Assembly: GCA_024762395.1 (NCBI GenBank) | Contig: JANTHP010000007.1 | Span: 1 to 35,304, forward strand | DNA from: Anaerolineae bacterium | GTDB taxonomy: Bacteria > Chloroflexota > Anaerolineae > Promineifilales > Promineifilaceae | Direction of reading: 5' to 3' | DNA length: 35,304 bases | Shown here: positions 1-33,752 of the stretch, piece by piece | Position numbering within the stretch: the stretch's first letter is position 1 | Layout: the number at the start of each line of letters is the position of its first letter | The notes under the pieces: generated by a model | The model's input: the letters and a program-made list of their open reading frames with translations, nothing else | Databases searched by the model: none | Told to the model about the DNA's origin: nothing | Program-made: the position numbers and the translations under genes

Positions 1-95
1 TCAGTGTTCAGTAATCTGTAAACAGTTATCAGTACGGTCTACCTCTGGAAAGTGCCTACTGAAAACTGTTTACTGACTTCTGTTTACTGGTACTA
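1..95. repeat. Intergenic word array (CAGT/ACTG type), foldable
   Basis: This stretch before cytochrome b is built from words around CAGT, CTGT and AACAGT, then from the complementary words ACTG, AACTG and GTTTACTG. The left part (about 1-36) and right part (about 57-95) can pair around TACTGA and AACTGTTTAC. It is the first of many such arrays in the window. I see no gene between position 1 and the cytochrome b start. Confidence 0.6.
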
Positions 96-229
96 GTAAA
101 CGGGCAACGGCCGTAACCCGCGCCCATAAGTAGGCGGCCAACAAAAACCCAACCGGCAAGCTGCTTACATAAAGCCTGTGCGCCCCATCTGCAAACTTTT
201 TGGCGAACGGGCGCTGAGGAGTAATGCTC

Positions 230-1558
230 ATGACCAATCTGAAAGAACGTTTGCTTTACACCGCGAATAACCCAACCGACGACCGCGGCCGAATGCGGGC
301 TGTCGCCAATAATCTGATTTTGCATCTGCACCCCACCAAAGTGCCCGCTCCGGCATTGAAGTGGAGCTACACCTGGGGGCTGGGCGGTATGTCGGCCACA
401 CTGGCGCTGGTTTTGCTCATCACCGGCGTTTTGCTCATGTTCCGCTACGATGCCAGCGTGGAACGCGCTTACACCAGCATCCAAAATCTGGAAACGCAGG
501 TGGCTTTTGGGGCGTTGATTCGCGGGCTGCACCATTGGTCGGCCAATTTGTTGATTGTGACCACTTTTTTGCATCTGATTCGCGTCTTTCTAACGGGCGG
601 ATTCAAACAAGGACGCACCACAAATTGGCTGATTGGCGTGATTTTACTGCTGCTGGTGGTGGCGTTTAATTTCACCGGCTACCTGCTGCCCTGGGATCAG
701 TTGGCATTCTGGGCGATTACGGTAGGGACGAGTTTGTTGAGCTATGTGCCGGTGGTCGGCGCCGCTATTTCCAACTTCTTACTTGCCGGCCCAGAGGTCG
801 GGCAGGGGGCGCTGCGGAATTTCTACGCCATCCATGTGGCCGTTTTGCCCGCCATCATGATCATCCTGCTCTCTTACCACTTCTGGAAAGTGCGTAAGGA
901 TGGCGGCATTTCCCAACCCATCAGCAAAGAAAGAACCCGCGTCGAACGGCTGACGACGATTCCCCATTTGGTACAAAAAGAGTTTGCGGCGGCGGTGGTG
1001 GTGATTACGGCTGTTACCATTTTTGCCATGCTCGTTCCCGCCCCTCTGGAAGCGCTCGCCAACCCCTCCCATCCGCCCAATCCGGCCAAAGCCGCCTGGT
1101 ACTTCATGGGCCTGCAAGAACTGCTGCTGCATATGCACCCATTGGCGGCCATGCTGCTGCCCGGCATAGTTCTAGCCGCCATCGCCGCCATTCCCTACTG
1201 GGATAAGCGGGAAGAAGACATTGGCGTTTATTTTCGGTCCAAAGTGGGGACGGGAACGGCCGTCATCGGCGCCATCTTAGGCATCGCTTTACCGCCAGTT
1301 CTAGTCATCGTAGACGAATACTGGCTGGACTTACCGGCGCTCATGCCTAACATATCCACCTTGATTTCCAATGGATTGATTCCGCTGGCGCTGAGTTTAG
1401 GTGGATTAGCCGCCATTTACTTCCTGTTCCGCGTCATTGCCCGCGCCAATCGCAGCGAAGCGACCGTCGGCTTATTCGTCTTCCTCATGGTCAGCCTGGT
1501 TACGCTAACCGTCATCGGTATCTTCTTCCGCGGCGCAAACATGGCGTTAGTCTGGTAG
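230..1558 (+). CDS. Cytochrome b of a bc-type quinol:cytochrome c oxidoreductase
   Basis: This 442-residue polytopic membrane protein fuses a b6-like N-terminal half to a subunit IV-like C-terminal half. Four histidines match the haem b ligands: H101 (LHHWSAN) with H202 (IHVAVLP), and H115 (FLHLIR) with H217 (YHFWKVRK), in the 14- and 15-residue spacing of cytochrome b. The Qo region reads PNPAKAAWYFMGLQELL, the form typical of menaquinol-type cytochrome b rather than PEWY. Residues aligned with the cysteine that holds haem ci in cytochrome b6 read GLGG, so that haem is probably absent. I chose ATG 230 because TGAGGAG at 215-221 is 8 nt away; an in-frame ATG at 224 is too close. The Rieske and triheme cytochrome c genes follow on the same strand, and together they should move electrons from menaquinol to a c-type cytochrome. 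Confidence 0.93.
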   Translation: MTNLKERLLYTANNPTDDRGRMRAVANNLILHLHPTKVPAPALKWSYTWGLGGMSATLALVLLITGVLLMFRYDASVERAYTSIQNLETQVAFGALIRGLHHWSANLLIVTTFLHLIRVFLTGGFKQGRTTNWLIGVILLLLVVAFNFTGYLLPWDQLAFWAITVGTSLLSYVPVVGAAISNFLLAGPEVGQGALRNFYAIHVAVLPAIMIILLSYHFWKVRKDGGISQPISKERTRVERLTTIPHLVQKEFAAAVVVITAVTIFAMLVPAPLEALANPSHPPNPAKAAWYFMGLQELLLHMHPLAAMLLPGIVLAAIAAIPYWDKREEDIGVYFRSKVGTGTAVIGAILGIALPPVLVIVDEYWLDLPALMPNISTLISNGLIPLALSLGGLAAIYFLFRVIARANRSEATVGLFVFLMVSLVTLTVIGIFFRGANMALVW

Positions 1559-1698
1559 TCTTTAGTCAAGTAGTCTGGTAGTCAATTAGTCATGCAGTCA
1601 CTCTGTCGACTGCCAGACCACACGACTAAAGACCACACGACTACAAGACTAAAGACTACTCGACTACAAGACTAAAGACTACTCGACTACAAGACTAA
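1559..1698. repeat. Intergenic word array (TAGTC/GACTA type) with 23-bp tandem unit
   Basis: Left words are of the type TAGTC and GTAGTC (1556-1605); right words are GACTAC, GACTAA and GACCAC (1610-1695). The halves are complementary and could form a long imperfect hairpin between the cytochrome b and Rieske genes. The right half contains a 23-bp unit starting at 1641, 1664 and 1687 (about 2.4 copies). The array reaches to within a few bases of the Rieske start and leaves no obvious Shine-Dalgarno site there. Confidence 0.8.
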
Positions 1699-1704
1699 TA
1701 AATC

Positions 1705-2193
1705 ATGAACAAAAACACAACACCTGAACTTACCCGACGCGATTTTATGAAGATGGGCGCCAGCGCATTAAGCCTGCTGGCTGTCCTGGAAGTGGGCGGA
1801 GCCAGCCTGATGTTTATGCAGCCGCGCAGCCTGGATGGCGAATTTGGCGGCGAAGTCAATGCCGGAGCGGTTGACAGCTTTCCCCCCGGCAGCGTAACCC
1901 ATTTCCCAGACGGCCGTTTTTACCTCATTCGCGCCGATAGTGGCGGATTTTTAGCCGTTTATCAACGCTGCACCCATCTGGGCTGCACCGTTAATTGGGA
2001 ACCCAATCAGAACCGCTTTTTCTGCCCCTGCCACGCCTCCGCCTTCGACATACACGGCGATGTCCAAAACCCGCCTGCTCCCCGTGCCCTGGACACCTTT
2101 GCCGTAACCATTGAAAACGGAGAAGTCATCGTCAACACTGCCGACATTCAAACCCGCGACCAGTTCGCACCGGAGCAGTTGGTACATAGCTAG
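1705..2193 (+). CDS. Rieske [2Fe-2S] iron-sulfur protein
   Basis: This 162-residue protein begins with a twin-arginine signal/anchor (TRRDFMKMG at residues 10-18, then a hydrophobic stretch to about 38). The Rieske fold follows: box 1 CTHLGC (C89, H91, C94) and box 2 CPCHAS (C107, C109, H110). C89, H91, C107 and H110 should bind the [2Fe-2S] cluster, with C94-C109 as the disulfide. It is the high-potential electron acceptor of the bc complex and takes electrons from quinol at the Qo site of the preceding cytochrome b. The start has no clear ribosome-binding site; the upstream bases belong to a word array, so translation may depend on a folded or leaderless context. Confidence 0.95.
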   Translation: MNKNTTPELTRRDFMKMGASALSLLAVLEVGGASLMFMQPRSLDGEFGGEVNAGAVDSFPPGSVTHFPDGRFYLIRADSGGFLAVYQRCTHLGCTVNWEPNQNRFFCPCHASAFDIHGDVQNPPAPRALDTFAVTIENGEVIVNTADIQTRDQFAPEQLVHS

Positions 2194-2257
2194 AGGATAG
2201 AGCTAGAGTTAGAGGGAAGCAGGCATTCTTTCTAGCGCTGCCCTCTAGCGCTAGCTT
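2192..2257. repeat. Short intergenic word array (TAGAG/CTCTA, AGCGCT)
   Basis: Words TAGAGGA, TAGAGC and TAGAGT at 2192-2216 are followed by complementary CTCTAGCGCTAGC-type words at 2231-2255. The array overlaps the Rieske stop codon and ends just before the GGAG ribosome-binding site (2260-2263) of the next gene. Confidence 0.55.
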
Positions 2258-2269
2258 TTGGAGATCATT

Positions 2270-3784
2270 ATGAACAAATACACATTCACCAGCGCCATCA
2301 CCCTGCTGCTGCTCATCATCATCTTGCCCGTTTACGCCTATTTAGAACCATTTCGCATGGAGAAGGCGCAGATAGAACTACGCGAGGAATTTGTGTCTGA
2401 CGCGGCTGTGCTGTACGTGCAAAACTGCGCCGTTTGCCACGGCGCATCCGGCGAAGGCATTGGGGCCATGCCCGCATTGGACAACGACGGTTTACGCACG
2501 GCCGATTACGACTTTCTTTACAAAACCATCGCGCGCGGCCGTTACGACACGGCCATGGCCGGCTGGCACATGGACGAAGGCGGCAGCTTCAACGATTATC
2601 AAATTGACGAACTCATCGCCATGATTCGTTATGTGGATTGGCCACAAGTTGGCGAATTGGCCGCAGCCCAAGGTCTCATCCCGCCAACCCTGCCTGTGCC
2701 TGAAGTAGATGAAGCATTTTTGGCAGAAGTAACCGCGCTTGACCCGGACGGAGCCGTTTGGGCTGAAGGGATGCAGCTCTTTGCCAACAACTGCACCATC
2801 TGTCACGGCGTTAACGGCGAAGGTTCTGACCTGGGCGCGCCTTTGAATACGCCGGAATTAAGAGCGCAGGAGGCAACGGCCGTTACCAATACCATCACCA
2901 ACGGCGTCCCCGGCACTGCTATGGTCGCCTGGGATAACGCCCTGACGCCCACAGAAATCGAATCCATCGTCAGCTTCCTGCAAAATTGGGACATCATCGA
3001 AGGGCAAGGGTTAGCCTTAACGCCGCCCGAACCTATCCAAATTGATTTAAACAATCCCGAAGAAGTCCTGGCATTGGGCGAGCATCTTTTTGCAACCGTT
3101 TGCGCGACTTGTCATGGCGAGGAAGGCAGCGGCGGAACCGGCCCGGCGCTAAACAGCCAACAGATTCTCACCCGCAACACAGATGAGCAAATTTTGAACA
3201 CGATTATCAACGGCGGTCATCGTCCCAATTCTACGATGCCCGCTTTTGGCGACCGGCTAACAATGGTCGAGATGGAAGCATTGGTCGAGTACATCCGCGC
3301 CTGGGAACCGACGGCGCCTGTGGTGGAAAATCCACGCGGTACGGCGCAAGGCGGCGGCCCGCCCTGGCTGCGCGCTACGCCGGATGCTGAAAACCCCATC
3401 GCGCCGCAAGGCGGCCAGGGGCAAGGGTATCGCGGCGGCGCCAATCCCGATTTCCAGCGGGGGAATCAAGGGCAGGGGCAAAATGACCAGAGCCAGGCCG
3501 CGCCTGAAACAATGGGGCCGACGGTTCATCTCAGCGGCGTTGTTGTGTCGGTGAACGAAAATCTGCTTGCCTTCCAGACGGCCGACGGCGCCGCGTTGGC
3601 AGCGATGCTTGGCCCGCCCTGGTTCTGGTCGGAAAACGGCATCCCGCTTAATCCCGGCGACCAAATCGAACTGGAAGGGTTTGAGTCGCCTGACCACATG
3701 GAATTGAATTGGATTGTGAACCTGACAACGGGCGAGAGGCTGGATTTAAGAACGCCTGACGGAATGCCGGTGTGGAATAATTAA
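2270..3784 (+). CDS. Triheme cytochrome c with C-terminal OB-like domain, bc complex subunit
   Basis: This 504-residue protein has one N-terminal membrane segment (about residues 5-24), then three mono-haem cytochrome c domains with CAVCH (53-57), CTICH (175-179) and CATCH (278-282). A Gly/Gln-rich linker (about 365-410) leads to a C-terminal domain of about 85 residues with alternating hydrophobic strands and the patterns LSGVVVSV, LGPPWFW and LNPGDQIELEGF. This looks like a small OB-fold-like beta-barrel, a judgement by pattern only. I chose ATG 2270, with GGAG at 2260-2263 six bases upstream, over an in-frame TTG at 2258. Its place after cytochrome b and Rieske marks it as the cytochrome c1 equivalent that passes electrons from the Rieske centre onward. 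Confidence 0.88.
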   Translation: MNKYTFTSAITLLLLIIILPVYAYLEPFRMEKAQIELREEFVSDAAVLYVQNCAVCHGASGEGIGAMPALDNDGLRTADYDFLYKTIARGRYDTAMAGWHMDEGGSFNDYQIDELIAMIRYVDWPQVGELAAAQGLIPPTLPVPEVDEAFLAEVTALDPDGAVWAEGMQLFANNCTICHGVNGEGSDLGAPLNTPELRAQEATAVTNTITNGVPGTAMVAWDNALTPTEIESIVSFLQNWDIIEGQGLALTPPEPIQIDLNNPEEVLALGEHLFATVCATCHGEEGSGGTGPALNSQQILTRNTDEQILNTIINGGHRPNSTMPAFGDRLTMVEMEALVEYIRAWEPTAPVVENPRGTAQGGGPPWLRATPDAENPIAPQGGQGQGYRGGANPDFQRGNQGQGQNDQSQAAPETMGPTVHLSGVVVSVNENLLAFQTADGAALAAMLGPPWFWSENGIPLNPGDQIELEGFESPDHMELNWIVNLTTGERLDLRTPDGMPVWNN

Positions 3785-4017
3785 AACGGGCTCTTTGGGA
3801 ATTCGCGGGGTTTTAGGTTGCGAGTGGCGAGTAGCGGGTGGGGCGTCCAGAGAACATACCCGCTACCCGCCACTCGCCACCCATACCAACCCCGTGAAAT
3901 CCTAGAGACCCTTAAAACGTGAAACGTGAAGCGTGATAGCTATTTCACGTTTCACGTTTTACGTTTTACGCTTCACGAAAAATCCCCAAATCTCCCAATC
4001 CCCGCTACAATTGGGGC
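3785..4017. repeat. Gap with two word-array hairpins
   Basis: The gap after the triheme cytochrome holds two foldable arrays. The first has heptads of the type GCGAGTG, GCGAGTA and GCGGGTG at 3820-3839, facing a 20-nt complementary arm at 3858-3877 with one mismatch. The second has AAACGTG-type heptads at 3914-3930, facing TTTCACG, TTTTACG and TTCACG words at 3943-3977. The second hairpin could end transcription of the bc operon, although no long T run follows. I see no gene in the gap. Confidence 0.75.
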
Positions 4018-4680
4018 ATGCAATCAAACACTGTGCAACGATTACGACTGACTTTTAGTAAAAAAGGGCCGGCGCGCTATATCGGTCACCTGGATTTGGC
4101 GCGGACGCTGGAACGGTCGCTGAACCGGGCCAGGATTCCGATGGCGTACACGCAAGGGTTTAACCCGCGGCCGCGAATGCAGTTTGCCGCCGCCCTGCCG
4201 TTGGGTTATACCAGCGATTGCGAGCTGGCCGATGTTTGGCTGGTGGAGCGGATGGAGCCGGAGCAGGCCAAAGCGCAAATGATGGCTAAAATCGCGCCGG
4301 GGCTGACGATTTTGCAGGTTGAGGATGTGCCTTTGAAGGAACCGGCGCTGCAAATGCAAACGGCCGTTTCCACCTACACCGCCGCCTTATTGGATGAAGT
4401 GGACACGGCCGTTCTCCAACAGCGCATCGCCGACATCCTGGCCTCAGACAGCCTCACCCGCGAACGCATCCGCAAGCGCAAGCGCAAAGAATACGATTTG
4501 CGCCCCCTGATTATTGATTTAGCGTTGGTAGAAACGGTTGACGGCCCTGTTATCCAAATGAAACTGGCGCTGGAACAAAACAAAAACGGCCGTCCCGACG
4601 AGGTTTTGTCCGCTTTAGAACTCGACCCGCTGGACGCCCGCATTCATCGCGCGGCGATCCTGCTAAAAAATAAAACGTAA
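4018..4680 (+). CDS. DUF2344 / TIGR03936 family protein (radical-SAM associated)
   Basis: This 220-residue protein matches the DUF2344 family from its start: LRLTFSKKGPARYIGHLDL, then a GFNPRPRMQFAAALPLG segment (about residues 46-62). Members are often fused to, or sit beside, a radical SAM protein and are thought to act in RNA or ribosome-related modification; the exact reaction is not settled. No radical SAM gene is next to it here, so the partner would be elsewhere. A basic segment RERIRKRKRKEYDLR lies near residues 148-162. The stop codon (4678-4680) falls inside a 14-bp terminator-like stem shared with the convergent PadR operon. Confidence 0.82.
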   Translation: MQSNTVQRLRLTFSKKGPARYIGHLDLARTLERSLNRARIPMAYTQGFNPRPRMQFAAALPLGYTSDCELADVWLVERMEPEQAKAQMMAKIAPGLTILQVEDVPLKEPALQMQTAVSTYTAALLDEVDTAVLQQRIADILASDSLTRERIRKRKRKEYDLRPLIIDLALVETVDGPVIQMKLALEQNKNGRPDEVLSALELDPLDARIHRAAILLKNKT

Positions 4681-4705
4681 AACGTGGAATGACGTTTTAC
4701 GTTTT
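4665..4705 (-). terminator. Perfect 14-bp stem terminator built from AAAACGT heptads
   Basis: AAAACGTAAAACGT (4672-4685) and its complement (4692-4705) form a perfect 14-bp stem with a 6-base loop. Read on the minus strand it is followed by A and six T, a good intrinsic terminator for the PadR operon coming from the right. The plus-strand DUF2344 gene ends inside the left arm. More heptads (ACGTTTT, ACGCATT) continue to about 4733, so the terminator is part of a word array. Confidence 0.8.
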
Positions 4706-4730
4706 AGTTTTACGCATTACGTTTTACGCA

Positions 4731-5021
4731 TCACATCTCTTTGGGTGGCTTTTCATCCGGGATGTCCTCATCGTCATCGTCCCACCACCAGCCCCAGCCG
4801 CGACCGCGACCAGACTCATGATGATGTTCGTGACGGCCGTGCCGGCGATGTCGTTTCATCTTAAACATCATACCGGGGCCAAATCCCATCATGCCGGGGC
4901 CGAAACCCATACCGGGGCCGAAACCCATTTTCTTAATGCGTTCCTTATCGCCCTTTACCTCGATGCGAAAACCGTCGTCTGTTTCAATAAACCGTACTTC
5001 GTGAATTACCTTTTCTGTCAT
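4731..5021 (-). CDS. Small GFGPGM-repeat, His/Arg/Asp-rich protein in PadR operon
   Basis: This 96-residue protein matches no family I recognise. Residues 1-32 look like a short beta-rich segment (VIHEVRFIETDDGFRIEVKGD). Next come three near-identical hexads GFGPGM, then a Met/Lys/Arg/His-rich stretch (KMKRHRRHGRHEHHH), a GRGRGWGWWW patch and an acidic tail (DDDDEDIPDE). Histidine, methionine and acidic clusters suggest metal or nucleic-acid binding, an inference only. I chose ATG 5021 because AAGGAG lies 6 bases upstream; a longer frame to 5111 has no such site. It lies 86 nt downstream of the PadR gene and shares its terminator, so it is probably regulated by it. Confidence 0.7.
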   Translation of the reverse strand: MTEKVIHEVRFIETDDGFRIEVKGDKERIKKMGFGPGMGFGPGMMGFGPGMMFKMKRHRRHGRHEHHHESGRGRGWGWWWDDDDEDIPDEKPPKEM

Positions 5022-5107
5022 TTTTGCTCCTTTTTGGCGGCTGGGCGCTGGCTGCTGGCGTCCGGTTGGTTGAACCGGCTGCCAGTTGCCATTACCAGCA
5101 ACCAACA

Positions 5108-5770
5108 TCAAATTTCATTTTTTACATCGCCATTCAGGTCGTCGGCTAATCCTTGCATGACCTCAACAGCTTCTTCCAATTTGGGCAGCACAACAGCGAT
5201 GAGTCGAGTCAACTCCTGCTCGCCCGCTTCCGTGATACGGTAAATGCGGACGGTGCGTTTACGCGGGTCTTCCCATTCGCCTTTGACTAACCCTTGCTCT
5301 TCCAACAGCGTCATGAGCGGGTAAATGGCGCCGGGATTGGCTACCCACTGCCCGCCGGTGCGCTCGGTGATGCGTTCCATCACCTCATTGCCATAACGCG
5401 GCTGCTGCGCCAGCAGGTGCAGGACGTAGATGGGCAGCAACCCGCCGCCTTTGCTCAATAAGCTGGCGACAAAGGGATTGAATTCATCCTTGCCCTGCCG
5501 CCAGGGATTGAACCGCCGCCCGCTGAACGCCCAATGATCTTCCGGCCAATCGCCCATGAAATCATGGAAGAATGTCCGCCAGAGAACGGCGCGTTTGCGC
5601 GGCGGGAAGGGCGGAGCTTCGTGATGTAACTGTCCGCGTTCGTCAGGTGGGCCGCCCATTTCCTGCCACAACCGGCGCCGTTCTTCGCGCCAATCGTTCC
5701 AGAAGTCTCTATGGCGTCTGCGATGGCTGCGTCTACGGTCATGCTCTTCACCGCGCATCTGTTTACTCAC
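5108..5770 (-). CDS. PadR family transcriptional regulator with long N-terminal extension
   Basis: This 220-residue protein carries the PadR winged helix at about residues 108-195: LLPIYVLHLLAQQPRYGNEV, then GAIYPLMTLLEEQGLVKGEW and the wing RIYRITEAGEQEL. PadR proteins bind a palindromic operator as dimers and are released by a ligand or stress signal. The first 100 residues are unusual for the family: rich in Arg, His and Trp (RRRSHRRRHRDFWNDW) and perhaps disordered or an extra binding surface. I chose GTG 5770 because AGGAG lies 7 bases upstream. A strong promoter and a perfect palindrome lie just upstream, so the gene is probably autoregulated together with the small GFGPGM protein. Confidence 0.9.
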   Translation of the reverse strand: MSKQMRGEEHDRRRSHRRRHRDFWNDWREERRRLWQEMGGPPDERGQLHHEAPPFPPRKRAVLWRTFFHDFMGDWPEDHWAFSGRRFNPWRQGKDEFNPFVASLLSKGGGLLPIYVLHLLAQQPRYGNEVMERITERTGGQWVANPGAIYPLMTLLEEQGLVKGEWEDPRKRTVRIYRITEAGEQELTRLIAVVLPKLEEAVEVMQGLADDLNGDVKNEI

Positions 5771-5810
5771 TGCACTTCTCCTGTTGTAAACTTCAATCAC
5801 TGCTTAACTA

Positions 5811-5834
5811 AACTATATTGAATTCAATATAGTT
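5811..5834. promoter_or_regulatory. Perfect 24-bp palindrome, likely PadR operator
   Basis: The two 12-base arms (AACTATATTGAA and its complement) meet at GAATTC. The site lies 2 bases downstream of the -10 box of the PadR promoter, where a bound dimer would block transcription. Position and symmetry fit PadR autoregulation. The binding itself is inferred. Confidence 0.8.
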
Positions 5835-5836
5835 GA

Positions 5837-5864
5837 ATTATAAAAAGAAAACGGCCGTTGTCAA
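5837..5864 (-). promoter_or_regulatory. Sigma-70-type promoter of the PadR operon
   Basis: On the minus strand TTGACA (5864-5859) and TATAAT (5842-5837) are separated by 16 bases, both perfect consensus boxes. One ACGGCCGT octamer (5851-5858) lies in the spacer and another (5871-5878) just upstream. Transcription would start within the palindromic operator. Confidence 0.85.
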
Positions 5865-5895
5865 GGGGGGACGGCCGTTCTTATACTTTTCTAAC

Positions 5896-5924
5896 AAAAA
5901 AGGACACCCAATCATGGATGTCCT
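5896..5924 (-). terminator. Intrinsic terminator of tRNA-Ser
   Basis: On the minus strand a 10-bp stem with one mismatch (AGGACATCCA, loop TGAT, TGGGTGTCCT) is followed by a T run. It begins 8 bases after the tRNA end. Confidence 0.85.
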
Positions 5925-5931
5925 CATTTAG

Positions 5932-6018
5932 CGGAGAGGGTGGGATTCGAACCCACGGTGACATTACTGCCACAACGCTTTTCGAGAGCGCCCCGATCAA
6001 CCACTCCGGCACCTCTCC
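5932..6018 (-). tRNA. tRNA-Ser(CGA)
   Basis: The minus strand folds as an 87-nt class II tRNA: acceptor stem GGAGAGG/CCTCTCC with discriminator G, a D arm starting at TGCCGGAGTGG, an anticodon loop CTCGAAA with anticodon CGA, a long variable arm, and a T arm containing GGTTCGAATCC. The long variable arm and the G discriminator fit serine. No CCA is encoded. It reads UCG codons. Confidence 0.95.
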
Positions 6019-6055
6019 AAAGAAAATGATGAAGGCAAAAAGGTAAAGGATGAAA

Positions 6056-6105
6056 GGCGTACTTCGCCACTTCGCTACTTCGCTACTTCGTTCCTTCGCC
6101 GTTCC
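6056..6105. repeat. One-armed word array (CTTCGCTA octads) overlapping the tadA end
   Basis: Octads CTTCGCCA, CTTCGCTA (twice) and CTTCGTTC run from 6063 to about 6100. The tadA stop codon (6083-6085, minus strand) lies inside the array, so the last residues of the deaminase are encoded by array words. I see no complementary arm. Confidence 0.6.
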
Positions 6106-6757: not shown

Positions 6758-6775
6758 ATTTACAAGGAGATAACC

Positions 6776-7444: not shown

Positions 7445-7489
7445 AAAAACAAAACGTGAAACGTGACCAGAGGCGCATCACGTTTCACG
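7445..7489 (-). terminator. Hairpin terminator made of CGTGAAA heptads
   Basis: CGTGAAACGTGA (7455-7466) and TCACGTTTCACG (7478-7489) form a perfect 12-bp stem. On the minus strand it is followed by TTTTGTTTTTG, so it should terminate the hydrolase gene that ends at 7532. Confidence 0.75.
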
Positions 7490-7531
7490 CAGAATCACGG
7501 GAAACCATTCCCCCGTTACCTTCAAATACCA

Positions 7532-17771: not shown

Positions 17772-17797
17772 GTAGGTCAAGTTTGCAAACTTGACCT
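17772..17797. repeat. Palindrome AGGTCAAGTTTG/CAAACTTGACCT, copy 1
   Basis: A perfect 24-nt palindrome (17774-17797) with a TTGCAA centre lies in the divergent region between the unknown protein and the LysM/M23 gene. The same sequence recurs at 19517-19544 on the other side of the LysM/M23 gene. Confidence 0.9.
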
Positions 17798-19516: not shown

Positions 19517-19544
19517 GTAGGTCAAGTTTGCAAACTTGACCTAC
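19517..19544. repeat. Palindrome GTAGGTCAAGTTTG and complement, copy 2
   Basis: A perfect 28-nt palindrome with a TTGCAA centre lies directly before the AGGAG ribosome-binding site of the sensor kinase. The 24-base core is identical to the one at 17774-17797, so the LysM/M23 gene is bracketed by two copies. Folding in mRNA could end upstream transcripts or affect kinase translation. Confidence 0.9.
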
Positions 19545-21863: not shown

Positions 21864-21964
21864 GAATTGTGAATTGTGAATTGTGAACGGTGAATTGTGA
21901 ATAAGGTGTCCAATCCACAACTCAAACGACTAAACGACTAATGACTAAACGATTAAACGATTAA
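21864..21964. repeat. Two word arrays (GAATTGT heptads; AAACGACT octads)
   Basis: GAATTGT and GAACGGT heptads run at 21868-21903. After a short spacer, octads AAACGACT, AATGACT, AAACGATT and AAATGACT run from 21925 to the start codon. The last word continues into ATGACTAACGAC, so the response regulator start codon is part of the array. The two arrays are not complementary to each other. Confidence 0.7.
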
Positions 21965-22624
21965 ATGACTAACGACAAAATCCGCGTTTGTATAGCCGAC
22001 GATCACGGCGTTGTGCGGGCTGGGTTACGCAGCCTGCTGATTGATTCCGGGTTAGATGTGGTGGGCGAAGCGGAAAACGGCCGTATCGCCATCGAAATCG
22101 TCAACCAACTCCAGCCCGACGTCCTCCTCCTCGACATCCGTATGCCCGACATGGACGGCCTGCAAGCGTTAGCCGCCATCAAAACCGCCCACCCCCAGGT
22201 CAGCGTCATCATGCTCACCACCTACGCCAACCCCGAATACCTGGCCCGCGCCGTTTCCCTGGGCGCCGCCGGCTACCTCTCCAAAGAAGTAGACCCCCAG
22301 CGCATCCCCCGCGCCGTCCGCGCCGCCGCCACCGGCGAAACCTTGCTGGACCGCGCCCTGCTCCGGGCCGCTCTGCAAAACGTCGCCGCGCCGCCCCCCG
22401 TTCAACCCGAACCCACCGCCATACCCATCCCCGACCTCACCGACCAGGAAATCGTCGTCCTTAAACTCATCGTCGAAGGGCTGAACAACGACGCCATCGC
22501 CGATGCCCTCTCCATCAGCCGCAGCACCGTCAAAACCCACGTCCGCCATATCTTCCAAAAATTAGACGTATCCGACCGCACGCAAGCGGCCGTTTGGGCC
22601 GTCCGTCACGGCCTGGCAAACTAA
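21965..22624 (+). CDS. NarL/FixJ-type response regulator
   Basis: This 219-residue protein has a receiver domain (1-120) with acidic pocket D12/D13, phospho-acceptor D57 (DVLLLDIRMPD), the T/S position in MLTTYA and K in YLSKEVD. A C-terminal LuxR-type helix-turn-helix follows (about 155-215: LTDQEIVVLKLIVEGLNNDAIADAL, SRSTVKTHVRHIFQKL). It is paired with the sensor kinase directly upstream. Its targets are unknown; the large respiratory operon starting 370 nt downstream is an obvious candidate. No clear ribosome-binding site precedes ATG 21965. Confidence 0.95.
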   Translation: MTNDKIRVCIADDHGVVRAGLRSLLIDSGLDVVGEAENGRIAIEIVNQLQPDVLLLDIRMPDMDGLQALAAIKTAHPQVSVIMLTTYANPEYLARAVSLGAAGYLSKEVDPQRIPRAVRAAATGETLLDRALLRAALQNVAAPPPVQPEPTAIPIPDLTDQEIVVLKLIVEGLNNDAIADALSISRSTVKTHVRHIFQKLDVSDRTQAAVWAVRHGLAN

Positions 22625-25746: not shown

Positions 25747-26616
25747 ATGAAGCAAATGGCTTTAAATCACAAGAAACCGTTCAACTGGCAGGCTGTTCTT
25801 ATTGTTTTGGGCGTTATTCTAATTTTGACAAGCGGTGTTTTATGGTGGACGAATCGGAGCGGCGCTGCGTCGGTGGAGTCGTCTCCGGCTGTGGAGACCG
25901 AAAGCAAGTCGCCGGCCGATGATTTTGTGGAGTTGGGGCTGAAACGCGCTCAGTCAGGCGATGTTGAAGGGGCGATGGAAGCGTTGGATATCGCTATTGC
26001 TTCTGATCCTGGCGGGGCGGCGCAAGCGTATTACTATCGCGGCTTGATCCAGGCCCAGCAGGGGGAGTTGAGCGCCGCGCTAGATGATTTTGACAGCGGT
26101 ATTGCTGCCAATCCTCATTTGCCGGAATTGTTTGCCGCACGGGGGACGACGTATGCCTCAATGGGGCGTCCGGCATCGGCGATTGATGATTTTTCGCAGG
26201 CGATTAAATTGGACGCGACTCATGCGGCAACGTATGTGAATCGGGGACAGGCTTATATGAATATGGGCGAGCCGGATTTGGCGATGGAGGATTTTAATAC
26301 GGCGCTGGAGATGGATCCGGAGTTGACGGCCGCTTACTTTAATCGCGGCGTCTTGTATTTGGAGAAGAGCGAGAATGAGAAGGCGCTGGCTGATTTTGAT
26401 GCCTGTATTGATTTAGCCCCGGAAGCGCCCGCCCCTTATTTTAACCGGGCGGTGGCGTACATGAATTTGAATGAATTGGAGTTGGCGGCGACGGATTTAA
26501 CGATCTACATTGGCATGACGGATGATGAAGAAGGCCGCCATCAAGCCCAGGCGCTGCGGGATTCGATGCTGGATTATGAGGGCGCCAGTCATCTGGATGT
26601 GGATGCGCAGGAGTAG
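25747..26616 (+). CDS. Membrane-anchored TPR protein
   Basis: This 289-residue protein has one N-terminal membrane segment (about 14-36), then a linker and about six tetratricopeptide repeats (about 60-270), for example AYYYRGLIQAQQGELSAALDDFD and TYVNRGQAYMNMGEPDLAMEDFN. TPR proteins hold partners together; here the place between the dodecaheme cytochrome and ActA suggests a role in assembly of the respiratory complex or in cytochrome maturation. That role is inferred. I chose ATG 25747, preceded by AGGGGA, because an in-frame upstream start at 25687 gives an unlikely N-terminus. Confidence 0.87.
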   Translation: MKQMALNHKKPFNWQAVLIVLGVILILTSGVLWWTNRSGAASVESSPAVETESKSPADDFVELGLKRAQSGDVEGAMEALDIAIASDPGGAAQAYYYRGLIQAQQGELSAALDDFDSGIAANPHLPELFAARGTTYASMGRPASAIDDFSQAIKLDATHAATYVNRGQAYMNMGEPDLAMEDFNTALEMDPELTAAYFNRGVLYLEKSENEKALADFDACIDLAPEAPAPYFNRAVAYMNLNELELAATDLTIYIGMTDDEEGRHQAQALRDSMLDYEGASHLDVDAQE

Positions 26617-26700
26617 TCGAGCAGTCATTTAGTCTTGTAGTCGAGTAGTCCGACTACCAGACTACGCGACTACGCGACTAACAGACTAACAGACTAAGAG
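26612..26700. repeat. Word array (GTAGTC then GACTAC/GACTAA)
   Basis: GTAGTCGA, GCAGTCAT and TTAGTCTT words at 26614-26650 are followed by complementary GACTACCA, GACTACGC and GACTAACA words at 26652-26697. The words are close to those of the 1559-1698 array, 25 kb away. The array ends next to the AGAGGAG ribosome-binding site of actA. Confidence 0.8.
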
Positions 26701-27243: not shown

Positions 27244-27465
27244 TGGTGGCTGGTAGCTGGTGGCTGGTAGCTGGTGGCTGGTGGCTGGTGGCTGGTGGCT
27301 GGTAGCTGGTGGCTGGTGGCTGGTGGCTGGTAGCTGGTGGTTGGTCTCTAGTTTGCCAACGACCAACGACCAACAACCAACGACCAACAACCAACGACCA
27401 ACGACCAACAACCAACAACCAACGACCAACAACCAACAACCAACAACAAACAACCAGCAACAGGA
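27244..27465. repeat. Large heptad array (GGTGGCT/GGTAGCT then CCAACGA/CCAACAA)
   Basis: About 100 bases of G/T-rich heptads (GGTGGCT, GGTAGCT) at 27244-27345 are followed, after CTCTAGTTTG, by about 100 bases of A/C-rich heptads (CCAACGA, CCAACAA) at 27356-27460. The halves are roughly complementary and could form a very long imperfect hairpin between actA and actB1. The frame of actB1 stays open through the right half for 55 codons, but the ribosome-binding site lies after the array. Confidence 0.9.
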
Positions 27466-27473
27466 ATTTTTTT

Positions 27474-29696: not shown

Positions 29697-29762
29697 TGTG
29701 GCGAGTGGCAGGTTGGCGAGTGGCAGGTTGGCGAGTGGCAAGTTGGCAAGTGGCAAGTTGGT
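29697..29762. repeat. Word array (GGCGAGTGGCAGGTT, 15-bp unit)
   Basis: The unit GGCGAGTGGCAGGTT and close variants (GGCAAGTGGCAAGTT) repeat about four times directly after the actB1 stop. Only one arm is present. The next array, of different octads, starts at the actB2 start codon, with the ribosome-binding site AAGGAGG (29765-29771) between them. Confidence 0.8.
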
Positions 29763-29777
29763 TGAAGGAGGTGTTTT

Positions 29778-30512
29778 ATGACTACCCGACTATCCGACAA
29801 CCCGACTACCCGACTATCCGACCATCGCTGGGGCATGGCGATTGACCTGGATAAATGCACCGGCTGTCAAGCGTGTGTGGTGTCCTGCCATGCCGAAAAT
29901 AATGTGCCTATTGTTGGTGAAGAAGAGGCGGCTTACGGCCGTACTGCCCATTGGCTGCGGATCGAACGGTACTGGGAAGGGGAATACCCCAACGTGAAGG
30001 CCAAATTCATGCCCGTTATGTGCCAGCAGTGCACCGAAGCGCCCTGCGAAGCCGTCTGCCCCGTCTACGCCACCTACCACAGCGATGAGGGGCTAAACGG
30101 GCAAATTTACAACCGCTGCATCGGAACCCGCTTCTGCGGCTCCGCTTGCCCTTACAAACAGCGCATGTACAACTGGTTCGACCCCGTCTTCCCCGAACCG
30201 CTGGAGCAGCAGCTAAACCCGGACGTAACCGTCCGCAGCCGGGGCATCATGGAAAAATGCACCTTCTGCGTCCAGCGCATCCGTCGCGTCAAAGAGGACG
30301 CCAAAGCGGAGGGGCGCGAGGTAACCGACGGCGAAATCCAACCCGCCTGCGCCCAGTCCTGCCCTACCAACGCCATTGTCTTTGGCGATTTGAACGACCC
30401 GGAAAGCCGGGTCAGCCAGATGGCCCGCAGTTCTCGCGCCTTCCGTTTGCTGGAAAACTTGGGAACCGAGCCGGGCGTTGTGTACCTCAAAGGAGGCGAA
30501 ACCCGTGTCTGA
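29778..30512 (+). CDS. ActB2: ferredoxin-like iron-sulfur subunit, 3 x [4Fe-4S] + [3Fe-4S]
   Basis: This 244-residue protein of the DmsB/NrfC/HybA type has four cluster-binding sets: C27, C30, C33, C37; C82, C85, C90, C94; C114, (T117), C120, C124; and C161, C164, C191, C195. The second cysteine of the third set is replaced by threonine, as expected for a [3Fe-4S] cluster and in line with one [3Fe-4S] plus three [4Fe-4S] reported for alternative complex III. It should carry electrons from ActC to ActA or ActB1. ATG 29778 has AAGGAGG 6 bases upstream, so the first 17 residues (MTTRLSDNPTTRLSDHR) are encoded by octad repeat words. It overlaps actC by 8 nt. Confidence 0.93.
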   Translation: MTTRLSDNPTTRLSDHRWGMAIDLDKCTGCQACVVSCHAENNVPIVGEEEAAYGRTAHWLRIERYWEGEYPNVKAKFMPVMCQQCTEAPCEAVCPVYATYHSDEGLNGQIYNRCIGTRFCGSACPYKQRMYNWFDPVFPEPLEQQLNPDVTVRSRGIMEKCTFCVQRIRRVKEDAKAEGREVTDGEIQPACAQSCPTNAIVFGDLNDPESRVSQMARSSRAFRLLENLGTEPGVVYLKGGETRV

Positions 30513-31932
30513 CAGCGTAAGCAGAATCAAGAAGAGCGATGGCATCATCATCCCTGAAGATGTCCGCGACCAATTGTTGTTGACGACGTTGAGCGACGAC
30601 GAACTGAACCAAAAGATGTTGGGACCGATGCAAAAAACCGGGCCGATGTTCTGGACGGCCGTTGTCGTCTTAGCTGCCATCTTTGCCTGGGGATTATACG
30701 CCTGGGGCTACCAAATCTACTGGGGCTTCGGCGTTTCCGGCATCAACCGTCCCGTTTACTGGGGCATGTACATCACCACCTTCGTCTTCTGGGTGGGCAT
30801 CAGCCACGCCGGAACGATGATTTCGGCCGTGCTGCGTATCTTCAAAGCGGATTGGCGGCGTCCCATCACCCGCGGTGCGGAAGCGATGACCGCCTTTGCC
30901 CTGATGATGGCCGGGCTGTTCCCCCTCATCCACGTGGGGCGCGTCTGGAAGGTGTACTGGATGATTCCCTATCCCAACAATCGCCACCTGTGGCCCAATT
31001 TCCAATCGCCGCTCATGTGGGACATGATTGCCATCACCACCTACCTGGTAGGCAGCAGCCTTTACCTTTACCTGGCGCTCCTTCCCGACTTGGGGATGGC
31101 CCGCGATAACAGTACCGGCTGGCGTTACAAACTCTACCGCATCCTGGCTCTGGGCTGGCGCGGCACGGAACCGGGCTGGCACAAGCTGGAAACAGCTTTG
31201 GGCATTTTCGCTATTGTTATCATCCCCGTATTCCTCTCCGTTCACTCCATCGTCTCCTGGGACTTTGCCGTGACCAGTCAGCCCGGTTGGCACAGCACCA
31301 TCTATCCGCTGCTCTTCATCATCGGGGCCATTTTCTCCGGCCTTTCGGCGTTAGGCTCCATTTTGGTTGTCGTGCGTTGGGGGATGAAGCTGGACTTCTT
31401 CTTGCGTAAGGAGCATTTGGACAATGTGGGCAAACTGGTCATGGTTGCCGGGCTGTTTTGGCTGTACATCTGGTTTGCCAGCCTGATTGTGAATTGGTAC
31501 GGCAACATGCCTGTCATCCGCGAATTGATGCACGATGAATTTAGCGGCGAAATGGCCCCGTTTTTCTACACGATGATGATTGCCAATGTCGTTCCCATCA
31601 TTCTTTTGATGTTCCGGCGCGTGCGGCGCAGCCCAATCTTACTGCTCATCCTGACGTTGTCGGTTAATGTGGGGATGTATGTGGAACGGTTCCTGCTGGT
31701 TTCCGGCAGTTTGTTACGCAACTATTTGCCGTTTAACTGGGGCCAATTCCGCCCGACCTGGGTGTCGTTAAGCATTGTGGCCATGACGTTTGCCGGATTT
31801 ATTCTGTTTTACATGCTCTTTACGCGGCTGATTCCTTATGTGCCGGTATGGGAAGTGAAACAGGGGCGTTTGCGCTACGGTACACGCCTTGTCGGCCGGG
31901 TCCAGGTTCCGACGATTACGCAGGTGGATTAG
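30505..31932 (+). CDS. actC: ActC: NrfD/PsrC-type membrane subunit
   Basis: This 475-residue polytopic protein of the NrfD family has about ten membrane segments. Landmarks are GINRPVYWGMYITTFVFWVGISHAG, ADWRRPITRGAEAM, HSIVSWDFA and NVGMYVERFLLV. NrfD-type ActC binds menaquinol and takes part in proton handling. GTG 30505 is chosen because AAAGGAGG lies 8 bases upstream and its GTGTCTGA overlaps the actB2 stop, a sign of translational coupling. No second NrfD gene (actF) is found downstream. Confidence 0.93.
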   Translation: MSDSVSRIKKSDGIIIPEDVRDQLLLTTLSDDELNQKMLGPMQKTGPMFWTAVVVLAAIFAWGLYAWGYQIYWGFGVSGINRPVYWGMYITTFVFWVGISHAGTMISAVLRIFKADWRRPITRGAEAMTAFALMMAGLFPLIHVGRVWKVYWMIPYPNNRHLWPNFQSPLMWDMIAITTYLVGSSLYLYLALLPDLGMARDNSTGWRYKLYRILALGWRGTEPGWHKLETALGIFAIVIIPVFLSVHSIVSWDFAVTSQPGWHSTIYPLLFIIGAIFSGLSALGSILVVVRWGMKLDFFLRKEHLDNVGKLVMVAGLFWLYIWFASLIVNWYGNMPVIRELMHDEFSGEMAPFFYTMMIANVVPIILLMFRRVRRSPILLLILTLSVNVGMYVERFLLVSGSLLRNYLPFNWGQFRPTWVSLSIVAMTFAGFILFYMLFTRLIPYVPVWEVKQGRLRYGTRLVGRVQVPTITQVD

Positions 31933-32150
31933 TGGCGGTTGGCGGTTGGTAACTGGTAACTGGTAGTTGGTGGTTGGTAACTGGTAGTTGGTAACTGGTA
32001 GTTGGTAACTGGTAGTTGGTAGTTGGTAGTTGGTAGTTGTTCACCAGCAACCAGCCACCAGCCACCAGCAACCACCCACCAGCCACCAGCCACCAGCCAC
32101 CAGCCACCAGCAACCAGCAACCAGCCACCAGCCACCACCCGCAGGTTGGT
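31933..32150. repeat. Large heptad array (TGGTAGT/TGGTAAC then CCAGCAA/CCAGCCA)
   Basis: G/T-rich heptads TGGTAAC, TGGTAGT and TGGTGGT run from about 31944 to 32038, then A/C-rich heptads CCAGCAA, CCAGCCA and CCACCCA run to about 32140. The halves are largely complementary, forming a possible hairpin of about 190 bases between actC and the four-helix-bundle gene. No gene is present. Confidence 0.9.
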
Positions 32151-32155
32151 GAGTT

Positions 32156-32524
32156 ATGGGTAAGATTCGGCATTATCGTGATTTGGAAGTCTGGAAAAGA
32201 GGCGTGGAAATTGCGGTGATGGTTTATGAGAATACGAAACAGTTCCCTAAAACAGAGGCTTATGGGTTGACGAATCAGATACGACGCGCGGTGGTTTCGA
32301 TTCCTTCAAATATCGCCGAGGGATACGGCCGTTCCAACAAGGAATTTGCCCGTTATCTCACAATTGCCAGAGGATCGTTATCTGAACTAGAGACGCAACT
32401 TGAAATTGCACAAAGGATTGGCTTTTTGCCGATGGCATCATTTACTGCAATCAACAAAGAGCTAACAATTCTGGGCAAACAACTCAACGTCCTGTCACAA
32501 AAAGTCAACGCGACCTACCGATGA
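32156..32524 (+). CDS. Four-helix-bundle protein (S23 / 23S rRNA intervening-sequence family)
   Basis: This 122-residue protein shows the family pattern from end to end: YRDLEVWKRGVEIAVMVYE, TNQIRRAVVSIPSNIAEGYGR, ARGSLSELETQLEIA and a final helix. Members were first found in intervening sequences of 23S rRNA genes and include the Avd accessory proteins of diversity-generating retroelements; most have no known role. Here it sits inside the Act operon between actC and actD, with large heptad arrays on both sides. Its stop overlaps an in-frame ATG (ATGA at 32521-32524) that reads through the next array into actD. The start ATG 32156 has only a weak GGTGAG site. Confidence 0.92.
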   Translation: MGKIRHYRDLEVWKRGVEIAVMVYENTKQFPKTEAYGLTNQIRRAVVSIPSNIAEGYGRSNKEFARYLTIARGSLSELETQLEIAQRIGFLPMASFTAINKELTILGKQLNVLSQKVNATYR

Positions 32525-32632
32525 CCAGCAACCAACAACCAGCAACCAACAACCAGCAACCAACAACCAGCAACCAACAACCAGCAACCAACAACCAGCA
32601 ACCAATAACCAATAACCAGCAACCAACAACAG
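32525..32632. repeat. Heptad array (CCAGCAA/CCAACAA), one arm
   Basis: About fifteen heptads CCAACAA and CCAGCAA run from the end of the four-helix-bundle gene to just before actD. There is no complementary arm beside it, but it is complementary to the G/T-rich left half of the 31933-32150 array, so the two could pair around the four-helix-bundle gene. It stays open in the actD frame and would encode a Gln/Asn/Pro/Thr-rich stretch (ATNNQQPTTSNQQP). Confidence 0.9.
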
Positions 32633-32640
32633 GTGATTCT

Positions 32641-33168
32641 ATGACTAAAACAATCAATCTCATGGGCTTGTTTGACGATGACAAAGCGACGTCGGCGGCG
32701 CTGGACGATATTTACGAATTAGGCGTGCGCGACGATCAGATTACGGTTATCTCCAGCATTCCTTACCCAGAGCAGGCATTGGGCCGCCATCATGTGTGGG
32801 TTCGGCTGCCGTTTATTGTGCTGGCCGGGGCTTTTGTCGGTTTTCTGTTTGGCTATTTTCTATCGGCCATTACGCCCCGGCTGTACCCGATTAACGTGAG
32901 TGGACACCCCCTTAGCGGCGGGCCGCCGGCGGCCATCATCACCTATATCTTTACGATGTTGTTTGCCGTTATTTCGACATTCATCGGTGTGCTGTGGGAA
33001 ATTGATGTGCCTGGCTTTGAGAAGAAATTCTATGACCGCAAGGTCACGAGCGGACAGTTGGCCGTCGTGTTGGAAGGTCTTCCGGCCGATAAGGAGAAGG
33101 CGGCGACGGCGGCGATGACGGCTCATGGCGGTCAGGATATCCGCCGCCCGGAGAAGATAACATTATGA
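32641..33168 (+). CDS. actD: ActD: DUF3341 membrane subunit
   Basis: This 175-residue protein matches DUF3341: a soluble N-terminal part (NLMGLFDDDKATSAALDDIYELGVRDDQITVIS), then two membrane segments (about 58-80 and 98-122) with HPLSGGPPAAIITYIFTM between or near them, and a soluble C-terminus. ActD is a peripheral structural subunit of alternative complex III. ATG 32641 has AGGTGA 4 bases upstream. A longer version from ATG 32521 would add 40 array-encoded residues and would overlap the preceding stop as ATGA; this is less likely but open. It overlaps actE by 4 nt. Confidence 0.9.
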   Translation: MTKTINLMGLFDDDKATSAALDDIYELGVRDDQITVISSIPYPEQALGRHHVWVRLPFIVLAGAFVGFLFGYFLSAITPRLYPINVSGHPLSGGPPAAIITYIFTMLFAVISTFIGVLWEIDVPGFEKKFYDRKVTSGQLAVVLEGLPADKEKAATAAMTAHGGQDIRRPEKITL

Positions 33169-33683
33169 GCAGACAAACGAAACGCGCTTATCTTATTTTA
33201 GGACTGATTATTCTGCCGTTTGTGGTCGGTTTGGTGTTTACCTACCAGAAGGTCAAGATTAGGTTTACGACGAACATGGCTGAAAACCCGACGGCCGGAT
33301 ATCAGGAAGGCCCGCGGTTGCTGCCGCCGGAAGGGGCTGTCTCTACGATGGGACAGCCGATTGTGGTGGGCAGTGTGCCGGAAAATCCGGTGGCTGCCGA
33401 TGAGGTGTCTTTACAGCGCGGTGAGATACTTTTTTCTATTCATTGCGCCTTGTGTCATGGCGACGCAGGCATGGGGGACGGCCCGATTGCGGCTTATTAT
33501 GAGGAGTACGAAGCGGATCCGCCGCCGGATTTGACGGGCAGCAATATCGTCAACCAATTTGACGGGGCGATTTTTCGCACGATTACGCAAGGGACGGGGA
33601 AGATGCCGCCGCTGGCGGAGAATTTGACGCGGCGCGAGCGATGGGACGTGGTGAATTATGTTCGCACGCTGGAAGTAAAATAA
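33165..33683 (+). CDS. actE: ActE: membrane-anchored monoheme cytochrome c
   Basis: This 172-residue protein has an N-terminal membrane segment (about 8-27), one haem motif CALCH (94-98) and a probable axial methionine in GTGKMPPL. ActE is the mono-haem cytochrome of alternative complex III that hands electrons to the next carrier. It starts at ATGA overlapping the actD stop, so translation is coupled. Confidence 0.9.
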   Translation: MSRQTKRAYLILGLIILPFVVGLVFTYQKVKIRFTTNMAENPTAGYQEGPRLLPPEGAVSTMGQPIVVGSVPENPVAADEVSLQRGEILFSIHCALCHGDAGMGDGPIAAYYEEYEADPPPDLTGSNIVNQFDGAIFRTITQGTGKMPPLAENLTRRERWDVVNYVRTLEVK

Positions 33684-33752
33684 TTATGAATTAGGAATGA
33701 TGAATTATGAATGGCGTTCATTCCTAATTCATCATTCATCATTCGTAATTCT
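33684..33752. repeat. Foldable word array (GAATTA/GAATGAT then ATTCATC/AATTC)
   Basis: GAATTAG, GAATGAT, GAATTAT and GAATG words (33686-33716) are followed by complementary CATTC, AATTCATC and ATTCATC words (33719-33752). They would fold as a hairpin between actE and the triheme lipoprotein gene. Confidence 0.8.

Follow-up and report, generated by a model that had tools for sequence, protein, structure and literature searches.

The window analysed here is the whole 35,304-bp stretch of contig C7 from the Anaerolineae bacterium assembly G000 (4.9 Mb in 500 contigs). By profile matches, its genes include those for cytochrome b, a Rieske protein and alternative-complex-III-type subunits, among them ActD. 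A sequence-only reading had described 14 of its gaps as filled with 7–8-bp words, in most cases followed by a complementary second half. One of these gaps also holds a gene that this reading had not noticed, encoding a 23S rRNA-intervening sequence protein (IVP, or S23p). We propose, with a probability of roughly 0.6, that the arrays form the inverted termini of selfish elements of the intervening-sequence (IVS) type, a family with gene-bearing and solo copies.

The open reading frame (ORF) at 32156–32524 matches PF05635 (‘23S rRNA-intervening sequence protein’) with 125 bits against a cut-off of 33.8, and TIGR02436 (four helix bundle protein) with 118.4 bits against 24; its solved relatives, 2gsc and 2rld, have five chains each. 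It sits between arrays at 31933–32137 and 32524–32630, and the frame is flanked by complementary arms, with 31933–32039 facing 32042–32137 and 32524–32630. The gene that follows is ActD (PF11821). By reading of L008, L009 and L010, three other genera have the homologous genes next to each other with no IVP gene in between, so that the window element is most simply a lineage insertion.

Genome-wide, PF05635 has 11 matches in G000, 10 of them above the cut-off, and word arrays lie beside all 11. L034 and L037 resemble halves of one IVP gene at contig ends. In L035, GTAGCGGGTGGCGA words precede the gene and CACTCGCTACCCGC words follow it; in L033, AATGAGGAATGATG words face TCATTCATCATTCC across it. 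By eye, complementary words are opposed across nine of ten IVP genes, counting L034 and L037 as one, the exception being L036, whose downstream words are direct copies as far as the contig end. With an array defined as a Tandem Repeats Finder (TRF) score of at least 36 within 250 bp of the gene, 10 of the 11 matches have one upstream, downstream or both; the remaining match is most probably L037, a half gene with a right arm that can be made out by eye.

The same anatomy recurs across phyla. PF05635 was found in 47 of 52 genomes of the family, and loci were compared in three sets: those of G000, those of the family, and named loci of many phyla, the last being the best 80 of at least 583 confirmed relatives. 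The named loci span Nitrospirae, Poribacteria, Planctomycetota, Bacteroidota, Clostridia, candidate phyla radiation (CPR) groups, Proteobacteria, one archaeon and others. They are not independent, because several congeners are among them (Flavobacterium, Chryseobacterium, Poribacteria), and since many assemblies are metagenome bins, contamination is possible in single loci. Control ORFs of at least 150 aa were taken from the same loci (71 of 76 from named loci). Short flanks removed six of 120 loci from the array count (two own, two family, two named), and eight of 120 were left out of the complementarity test. An array lies on either side of 64 of 78 named IVP genes as against 20 of 71 control ORFs, upstream of 60 as against 7, downstream of 35 as against 15, and on both sides of 31 as against 2; the downstream contrast is weaker than the upstream one. 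In the family, 26 of 28 testable loci have an array on either side, as do 19 of 20 further loci. Most of the 15 named loci that lacked one on either side in a first count still have short words by eye; L144 has none, and L087, L094 and L111 have them upstream only.

When each upstream flank was compared with reverse-complemented downstream flanks, the median score was 18.5 within a locus and 9 between loci. The same-locus score exceeded the 99th percentile of other-locus pairs at 7 of 8 own, 18 of 26 family and 31 of 78 named loci, as against 1 of 76 control ORFs, and the own downstream flank ranked best among 112 in 55 cases. With mechanical ORF calls, IVP is in the sense orientation to both neighbours at 102 of 123 loci and antisense to both at seven. 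Three IVP pairs have a finite, non-zero synonymous divergence (dS); their nonsynonymous divergence (dN) is 0.04, 0.10 and 0.16 against dS of 0.95, 2.6 and 1.1, and this low dN fits selection to keep the protein. Purifying selection is thus seen in the measurable pairs; of the others, three were saturated and one was identical. The idea that IVP loci lacking a strong array are rRNA insertions was rejected, as Rfam reported no rRNA in 20 loci and six tRNAs in L159 alone; phage records gave no IVP match at E 1e-5. We regard the element anatomy and the association of IVP with arrays as well supported and very probable.

In the window itself, 15 stretches were scored, that is, the 14 gaps with 3820–3977 divided in two and some limits shifted. 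The best self-match at lags 5–9 was compared with 200 dinucleotide shuffles, and in 14 of 15 stretches the match at lag 7 or 8 surpassed them all. The words of 7–8 bp are therefore real, and the absence of periodicity beyond chance, which had been named as grounds for giving up the observation, is confined to 2192–2257 (best lag 6, with 20 of 200 shuffles equally good). The complementary second half described for most loci was likewise borne out, the inverted-repeat score exceeding all 60 shuffles per stretch in 11 of 15. The test failed at 6056–6105, 29697–29762 and 32525–32632, which are one-armed, and at 21864–21980 the score equals the best shuffle. TRF, at a score of at least 50, found 93 arrays in 435 kb of G000 and 0 in first-order Markov shuffles; in the window their periods are mostly 7, 8 or multiples thereof. 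At a score of at least 45, G000 has 128 arrays, 70 of them called intergenic (47 of period 7, 19 of period 8); the intergenic position of the other 58 is unproven, since they overlap ORFs of at least 100 aa in a crude call.

Each locus had been thought to have its own word, a claim that we cannot uphold. By reading of the TRF words, a vocabulary recurs between loci: TAGTC+NNN or its complement at 1548, 21924, 26612 and 29780; ACGTGAA/ACGTAAA types at 3906, 4671 and 7452; TGGTNGC/CCANCAA at 27244, 31933 and 32525; AATTNTG at both 21864 and 33682; and GTGGCGA at both 3820 and 29698. At IVP loci, moreover, the words share the degenerate consensus RGTNRTY.

Table 1. Word arrays and the IVP gene in the window, with supporting scores (IR, inverted-repeat score; fold z, z-score of folding).
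Feature	Position	Strand	Scores and setting
IVP gene (S23p, four helix bundle protein, 122 aa)	32156..32524	+	between NrfD-type (actC-like) and actD genes
Left arm of IVP element, GTTGGTA/ACTGGTA, period 7	31933..32039	+	TRF; directly after actC-like stop codon; fold z -8.6 together with the following arm
Right arm, CACCAGC/AACCAGC, complementary to left arm	32042..32137	+	TRF; IR 48, shuffle maximum 16
Third array, 3' of IVP stop, one-armed, CCAGCAA/CCAACAA	32524..32630	+	TRF 179; no self-complement
Solo array, TGGTGGC/TGGTAGC arm then CCAACGA/CCAACAA arm	27244..27461	+	TRF 169, 175; IR 47, shuffle maximum 15; occupies gap between cytochrome c7-type gene and molybdopterin gene
Solo array, TAGTC+NNN then GACTA+NNN words	1548..1698	+	TRF; fold z -8.8; overlaps cytochrome b stop codon
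Solo array, TAGTC then complementary GACTA words, period 8	26612..26697	+	TRF; fold z -7.1
Solo hairpin, GCGAGTG words and complement	3815..3890	+	fold z -8.6
Solo hairpin, AAACGTG then TTTCACG words	3906..3977	+	TRF; fold z -8.6
Solo array, TAAAACG then ACGTTTT words	4671..4731	+	TRF; fold z -4.2; overlaps preceding ORF end
Short solo hairpin, AAACGTG words and complement	7452..7495	+	TRF; IR 12, shuffle maximum 7
Solo array at contig start, TCAGTAA-type words and complement	1..95	+	TRF; fold z -4.8
Hairpin, AGCTAGAG-like words, periodicity at chance	2192..2257	+	IR 14, shuffle maximum 11
One-armed period-8 array TACTTCGC	6060..6099	.	TRF 59; no inverted arm
Two arrays, GAATTGT then AAACGACT, mutually non-complementary	21864..21980	+	TRF; IR ties best shuffle
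One-armed array GTGGCGA/GTGGCAA	29698..29761	+	TRF 105; no inverted arm
Solo hairpin, AATTATG then ATTCATA words	33682..33751	+	TRF; fold z -8.1; overlaps cytochrome gene stop

Some further features of these loci are recorded here. The iron-sulphur subunit ORF begins within a period-8 array, GACTACCC, at 29778–29822, so the repeat words appear to encode its N-terminus. A shared palindrome, AGGTCAAGTTTGCAAACTTGACCT, occurs twice (17774–17797 and 19519–19542); it is a dispersed hairpin of the ordinary kind and does not resemble the word arrays. Another dispersed palindrome, some 60 bp long and similar to the repetitive extragenic palindromic (REP) type, lies at 34930–34990 (GATTTGTCAAATTT...AAATTTGACAAATC) and again at the contig break that splits the IVP gene of L034 and L037 (end of C292, start of C12). 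L031 (G000, C431) and L237 (G002, C106), from two congeneric species, are identical in their IVP gene and in the protein matches on its flanks; contamination of a bin or a very recent transfer may lie behind this.

The consensus was obtained from rotation-aligned 7-mers. Those of 58 upstream arms give T-Y-R-G-T-N-R, that is, RGTNRTY, with 3.60 bits against 2.72 (s.d. 0.10) for a null of letter-shuffled words. The 42 downstream arms, once reverse-complemented, give a like consensus (3.14 bits against 2.74, s.d. 0.11), so the words point inward on both sides. In polarity, G exceeds C in 74 of 89 upstream arms and C exceeds G in 54 of 67 downstream arms. In upstream arrays the letters with least variation are the G (0.022) and T (0.053) of RGT, and those with most are N (0.182) and R (0.209); since the motif itself served to choose the frame, this comparison is in part circular.

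Within the phylum, array load goes with the presence of IVP. Among 201 genomes of at least 90 completeness, with IVP and pattern counts from the same draw, 60 have IVP. Three consecutive RGTNRTY words (RGTNRTY x3) were found in 27 of these 60 and in 8 of the 141 genomes lacking IVP; four or more hits were found in 20 and 0, respectively. The Fisher tests of this contrast ignore descent, and G000 is counted among the IVP genomes. Since the pattern had been derived from IVP arms, a census of all arrays was also made, in stretches of 14 genomes with IVP (G260 with just 865 bp) and 13 without. Arrays of period 7/8 numbered 25 in 374 kb of the former and 2 in 335 kb of the latter, as compared with 23 and 17 of other periods. 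By family, the period-7/8 counts were 9 in 80 kb with IVP and 0 in 120 kb without (f25), and 10 in 121 kb and 1 in 87 kb (f36). At least two of the 25 arrays adjoin an IVP gene (L249:3908, L265:3574), and a few census arrays with TRF periods of 17, 18, 21 and 27 may be coding repeats. At L249 (G229, C2, 600–7800), seven period-7 arrays with differing words and one period-8 array lie within about 7 kb around IVP, perhaps as several elements at one site.

The arrays turn over site by site. Across 15 genomes, the gap between the cytochrome b and Rieske genes holds differing words, other hairpins or nothing: the genus mates G001 and G002 have other words or another hairpin, and G003, G026 and G013 have REP-like hairpins without words. 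At this gap the cytochrome b C-terminus reads VW* in G000 and PF* in L168, L169 and L170 (window 1548–1560), and the array at 1548–1698 appears to have extended into the end of the gene. A second site lies between two genes that we take, from their sequences, to be arcB and arcC. There the IVP form occurs in G010, G016 and G024, its words being AGATAGAGTGTAG, and in G000 both arms are made of GAGCTAGAG words; the form in G013 lacks the gene but has related words, and in other genera the words are unrelated or there is no array. In G013 the junction of loop and right arm, ACGCCTCTCTA, is similar to what follows the IVP stop codon in G016, ACGCCCTCTCTA, a likeness that fits gene loss from a full element.

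Comparison of such sites also bears on whether words change in step in both arms, which had been set as a check. They do so at two shared sites, arcB–arcC and the site before arcB, the clear cases being G000 against G010, G016 and G024 at the former and L050 against L045 at the latter, where separate insertions are possible because IVP identity is 56%. Over six locus groups, 26 comparisons were made of the 6-mers that an upstream arm shares with its own downstream arm and with the arm of the other species: the own arm had more in 19, fewer in 6 and as many in 1; two of the groups hold loci sharing just one flanking gene (L041; L054 with L060). Shared 6-mers replaced local alignment, which was ambiguous at arcB–arcC, after the first result, and arm limits were set by hand. 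The earlier suggestion of a process that makes words locally, drawn from conserved form with variable sequence, thus gains from the in-step arms at the two sites; a purely local origin without shared sequence is not supported, given the shared vocabulary, the shared consensus and the associated gene.

Plasmids extend the association to cyanobacteria. IVP genes occur in 29 of 72,556 plasmid records at E 1e-8, and 26 of the 29 are cyanobacterial by name. In the 12 examined, all cyanobacterial, heptamer or octamer words lie beside IVP in every case, and 8 of 12 have a downstream array by the TRF criterion. In Nostoc edaphicum, for example, GGGAACA precedes IVP and TGTTCCC follows it, and Picosynechococcus has a compact IVP copy between cas10 and cmr3. 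Elements between CRISPR genes (cas6–cas4, cas10–cmr3) were seen at L287, L292 and L295. The parallel that the sequence-only reading had drawn with the short tandemly repeated repetitive (STRR) heptamers of cyanobacteria is strengthened by these plasmids, and the heptamer repeats of cyanobacteria are probably of one kind with the window arrays.

Taken together, these data suggest the following model. The elements would be small intervening sequences, from tens of bp to about 0.7 kb by eye, residing mainly in operon spacers. The full form consists of an arm of RGTNRTY-like 7/8-bp words, a sense IVP/S23p gene of about 120 aa, presumably the autonomous part (in the window, 32156–32524), and a complementary arm, with words facing inward; most G000 copies are solo forms without the gene, which we consider likely derivatives of the gene-bearing element. 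IVP would lack its own promoter. Pairing of the arms in the host transcript would leave the IVP frame in a loop, and by analogy with the IVS of Coxiella 23S rRNA the paired arms might be cut by RNase III, a step in mRNA to which we give even odds. An element whose arms pair and are cut in this way would ride in its operon harmlessly. IVP, a protein with pentameric solved relatives and a remote kinship to the retroelement protein Avd, would bind the words and help the elements spread, solo copies included; that it acts on words in trans is a tentative suggestion. Words would drift by slippage of 7–8-bp units, and re-copying from arm to arm, by template switching in the hairpin, would maintain complementarity while the sequence changes. 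Both the mobility of the element and this word-making step are inferred.

Several observations weigh against this model. No movement of an element was observed, and cleavage in mRNA is extrapolated from rRNA; the authors of the Coxiella work think that S23p is probably not made there (PMC4990558). In G000, 84 period-7/8 arrays in 400 kb contrast with 11 IVP matches genome-wide. No RGTNRTY x3 hit was obtained in 33 of the 60 genomes with IVP, and 8 of the 141 without have one to three. The backward control pattern also hits, 253 times against 1049 overall and 63 against 140 in G000; it outnumbers the RGTNRTY pattern in G104 and G111 and occurs in 34 genomes, 24 with IVP and 10 without. The consensus is therefore far from exclusive, and non-consensus words are common. 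Nor is the link of arrays with IVP uniform, as families f31 and f34 showed no census difference, their IVP stretches holding no period-7/8 arrays. Where both flanks are shared, the own arm was better in 14 of 20 comparisons and worse in 6, a modest excess from comparisons that are not independent. Related IVP proteins at different sites mostly have different words (rho 0.11, permutation p 0.004), and so weak a correlation lends little support to the idea that the protein dictates the word. An integrase or transposase gene neighbours IVP at three of the 12 plasmid loci (L288, L290, L293), and in those copies that were read, among them the window element and compact ones such as cas10–IVP–cmr3, the arms enclose no recombinase. 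The sole RVT_1 match of G000 (contig C350) is not near any IVP match; with no reverse transcriptase linked to IVP in this genome, a retroelement that encodes its own enzyme was rejected.

The excess of solo arrays over IVP genes, and the different words, other hairpins or empty gaps in related species, would also be expected if the arrays were a by-product of host mutation, by polymerase slippage over 7–8 bp and quasi-palindrome correction, with IVP genes hitchhiking into hairpins. A published idea of heptamer slippage, relating it to the length of DNA that the polymerase binds, points the same way (passages of PMC4692102). We nevertheless consider this account unlikely: in the stretches sampled, phylum genomes lacking IVP are nearly without period-7/8 arrays while other periods are about equal, matched arms accompany IVP in many other phyla, and a shared degenerate consensus is not expected of slippage alone. 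Slightly less improbable, though still doubtful, is that the arrays, as RNA or DNA, serve an IVP pentamer as binding platforms in a system that regulates operons and is not a selfish element. TRAP, which binds spaced triplets, offers a parallel. The conserved core and variable spacer positions of upstream arrays, the low dN against dS in three pairs and the sense orientation all suit such a platform; the variability test is partly circular for the reason given above, occupied sites turn over between genera, the word–protein correlation is weak, and no common function was noticed among neighbouring genes, for which no dedicated test was made. Finally, the wordless REP-like hairpins of G003, G026 and G013 could suggest several unrelated dispersed repeats, of the REP type or resembling miniature inverted-repeat transposable elements (MITE), that are periodic by coincidence. 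This is very improbable, as the differing words, the 7/8-bp periodicity and the arms around one gene family do not fit, and no single fixed repeat underlies the loci.

If an IVS-type element family is the right interpretation, it may explain the source of the seven-letter repeats that have long puzzled students of cyanobacteria and other microbes, and the origin of bacterial heptamer repeats (STRR and their kin) and the role of S23p/IVP would merge into one testable question. Spacers filled with words have so far been read as regulatory signals or as slippage. STRR-PCR is used for strain typing; were the arrays copies of an element, this practice, the annotation of operon spacers and ideas of regulatory heptamers would have to be reconsidered. 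If true, a step altering the two arms jointly would be an unusual way of making DNA sequence.

Among known systems, REP and MITE palindromes resemble the arrays as spacer hairpins and presumed non-autonomous copies. They differ in that the window arms are tandem 7/8-bp words that vary by locus, and no conserved palindrome common to the loci was found; as a fixed repeat, the REP/MITE type was rejected, with only a degenerate consensus shared. The distinction from REP elements drawn in the sequence-only reading thus stands as to the differing words and goes too far in holding the sequence wholly unshared, as vocabulary and consensus are common to loci. Nor do the copies read contain the transposase or integrase of a transposon, the sole frame between the arms being IVP. 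Avd of diversity-generating retroelements is a distant relative, with DivGenRetAVD at 29.8 bits and bAvd at 22.9 bits for the window protein, below the curated cut-offs of 80 and 40; contig C350 with RVT_1 carries no IVP, and the assignment to such retroelements does not hold on these two counts, template and variable repeats (TR/VR) not having been searched for.

Heptamer repeats offer a further comparison. To our knowledge, STRR are known as repeats only. They too are intergenic tandem heptamers at many loci per genome (in G000, 47 of 70 intergenic arrays have period 7); the likeness is one of repeat form. No STRR–IVP link appeared among the literature matches listed, nor any link of IVP/S23p with intergenic heptamer arrays, subscription papers lying outside their coverage. 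The TAACTGA repeats of Beggiatoaceae, cyanobacteria and Bacteroidetes were described as spacer heptamers and a possible translational signal (MacGregor 2015, PMC4679880, in part). Reverse-complemented and rotated, this word is AGTTATC, which fits RGTNRTY and is present in array-rich genomes here; that paper treats one word, and ‘S23’, ‘helix bundle’ and ‘23S’ have 0 occurrences in its main text. The GGGAATC and GGGGA(T/C)T repeats of Xanthomonas and Nostoc are likewise intergenic heptamers with inverted repeats, whose length and sequence vary among close relatives; they differ in being read as G-quadruplex repeats (passages of PMC4692102, in which ‘S23’ occurs 0 times). The solved IVP 2gsc is XCC0516, the S23p of Xanthomonas campestris (species from PMC4990558), which may hint at a tie to those heptamers. 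Heptamer repeats are also described in PMC6749651, in passages without an IVP link, and IVP is mentioned in rRNA insertions in a passage of PMC11270868.

Another close system is the IVS of Coxiella burnetii 23S rRNA, in which the S23p frame lies in a stem-loop excised by RNase III and tandem GACAGAT heptamers, varying in number between strains, precede its start codon (PMC4990558, in part). The two are alike in the protein, IVP/S23p by name, in a frame within an inverted-repeat stem loop, and in tandem heptamers (same passages). The window element is not in 23S rRNA, Rfam giving just one tRNA in the window and the ORF lying between NrfD-type and ActD genes; it differs from the Coxiella IVS in occupying protein-operon spacers and in its longer arrays and many gene-less solo copies. 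It is conceivable, taken as one joint proposal that we advance with some reserve, that we are dealing with an undescribed class of mobile elements in bacteria and archaea, made up of one four-helix-bundle protein and self-renewing inverted word arrays, whose IVP recognises RGTNRTY and, in trans, makes or re-copies the arms of gene-less copies, and that the heptamers of cyanobacteria, Beggiatoaceae, Xanthomonas and the window form one family, the rRNA IVS being members that landed in 23S rRNA.

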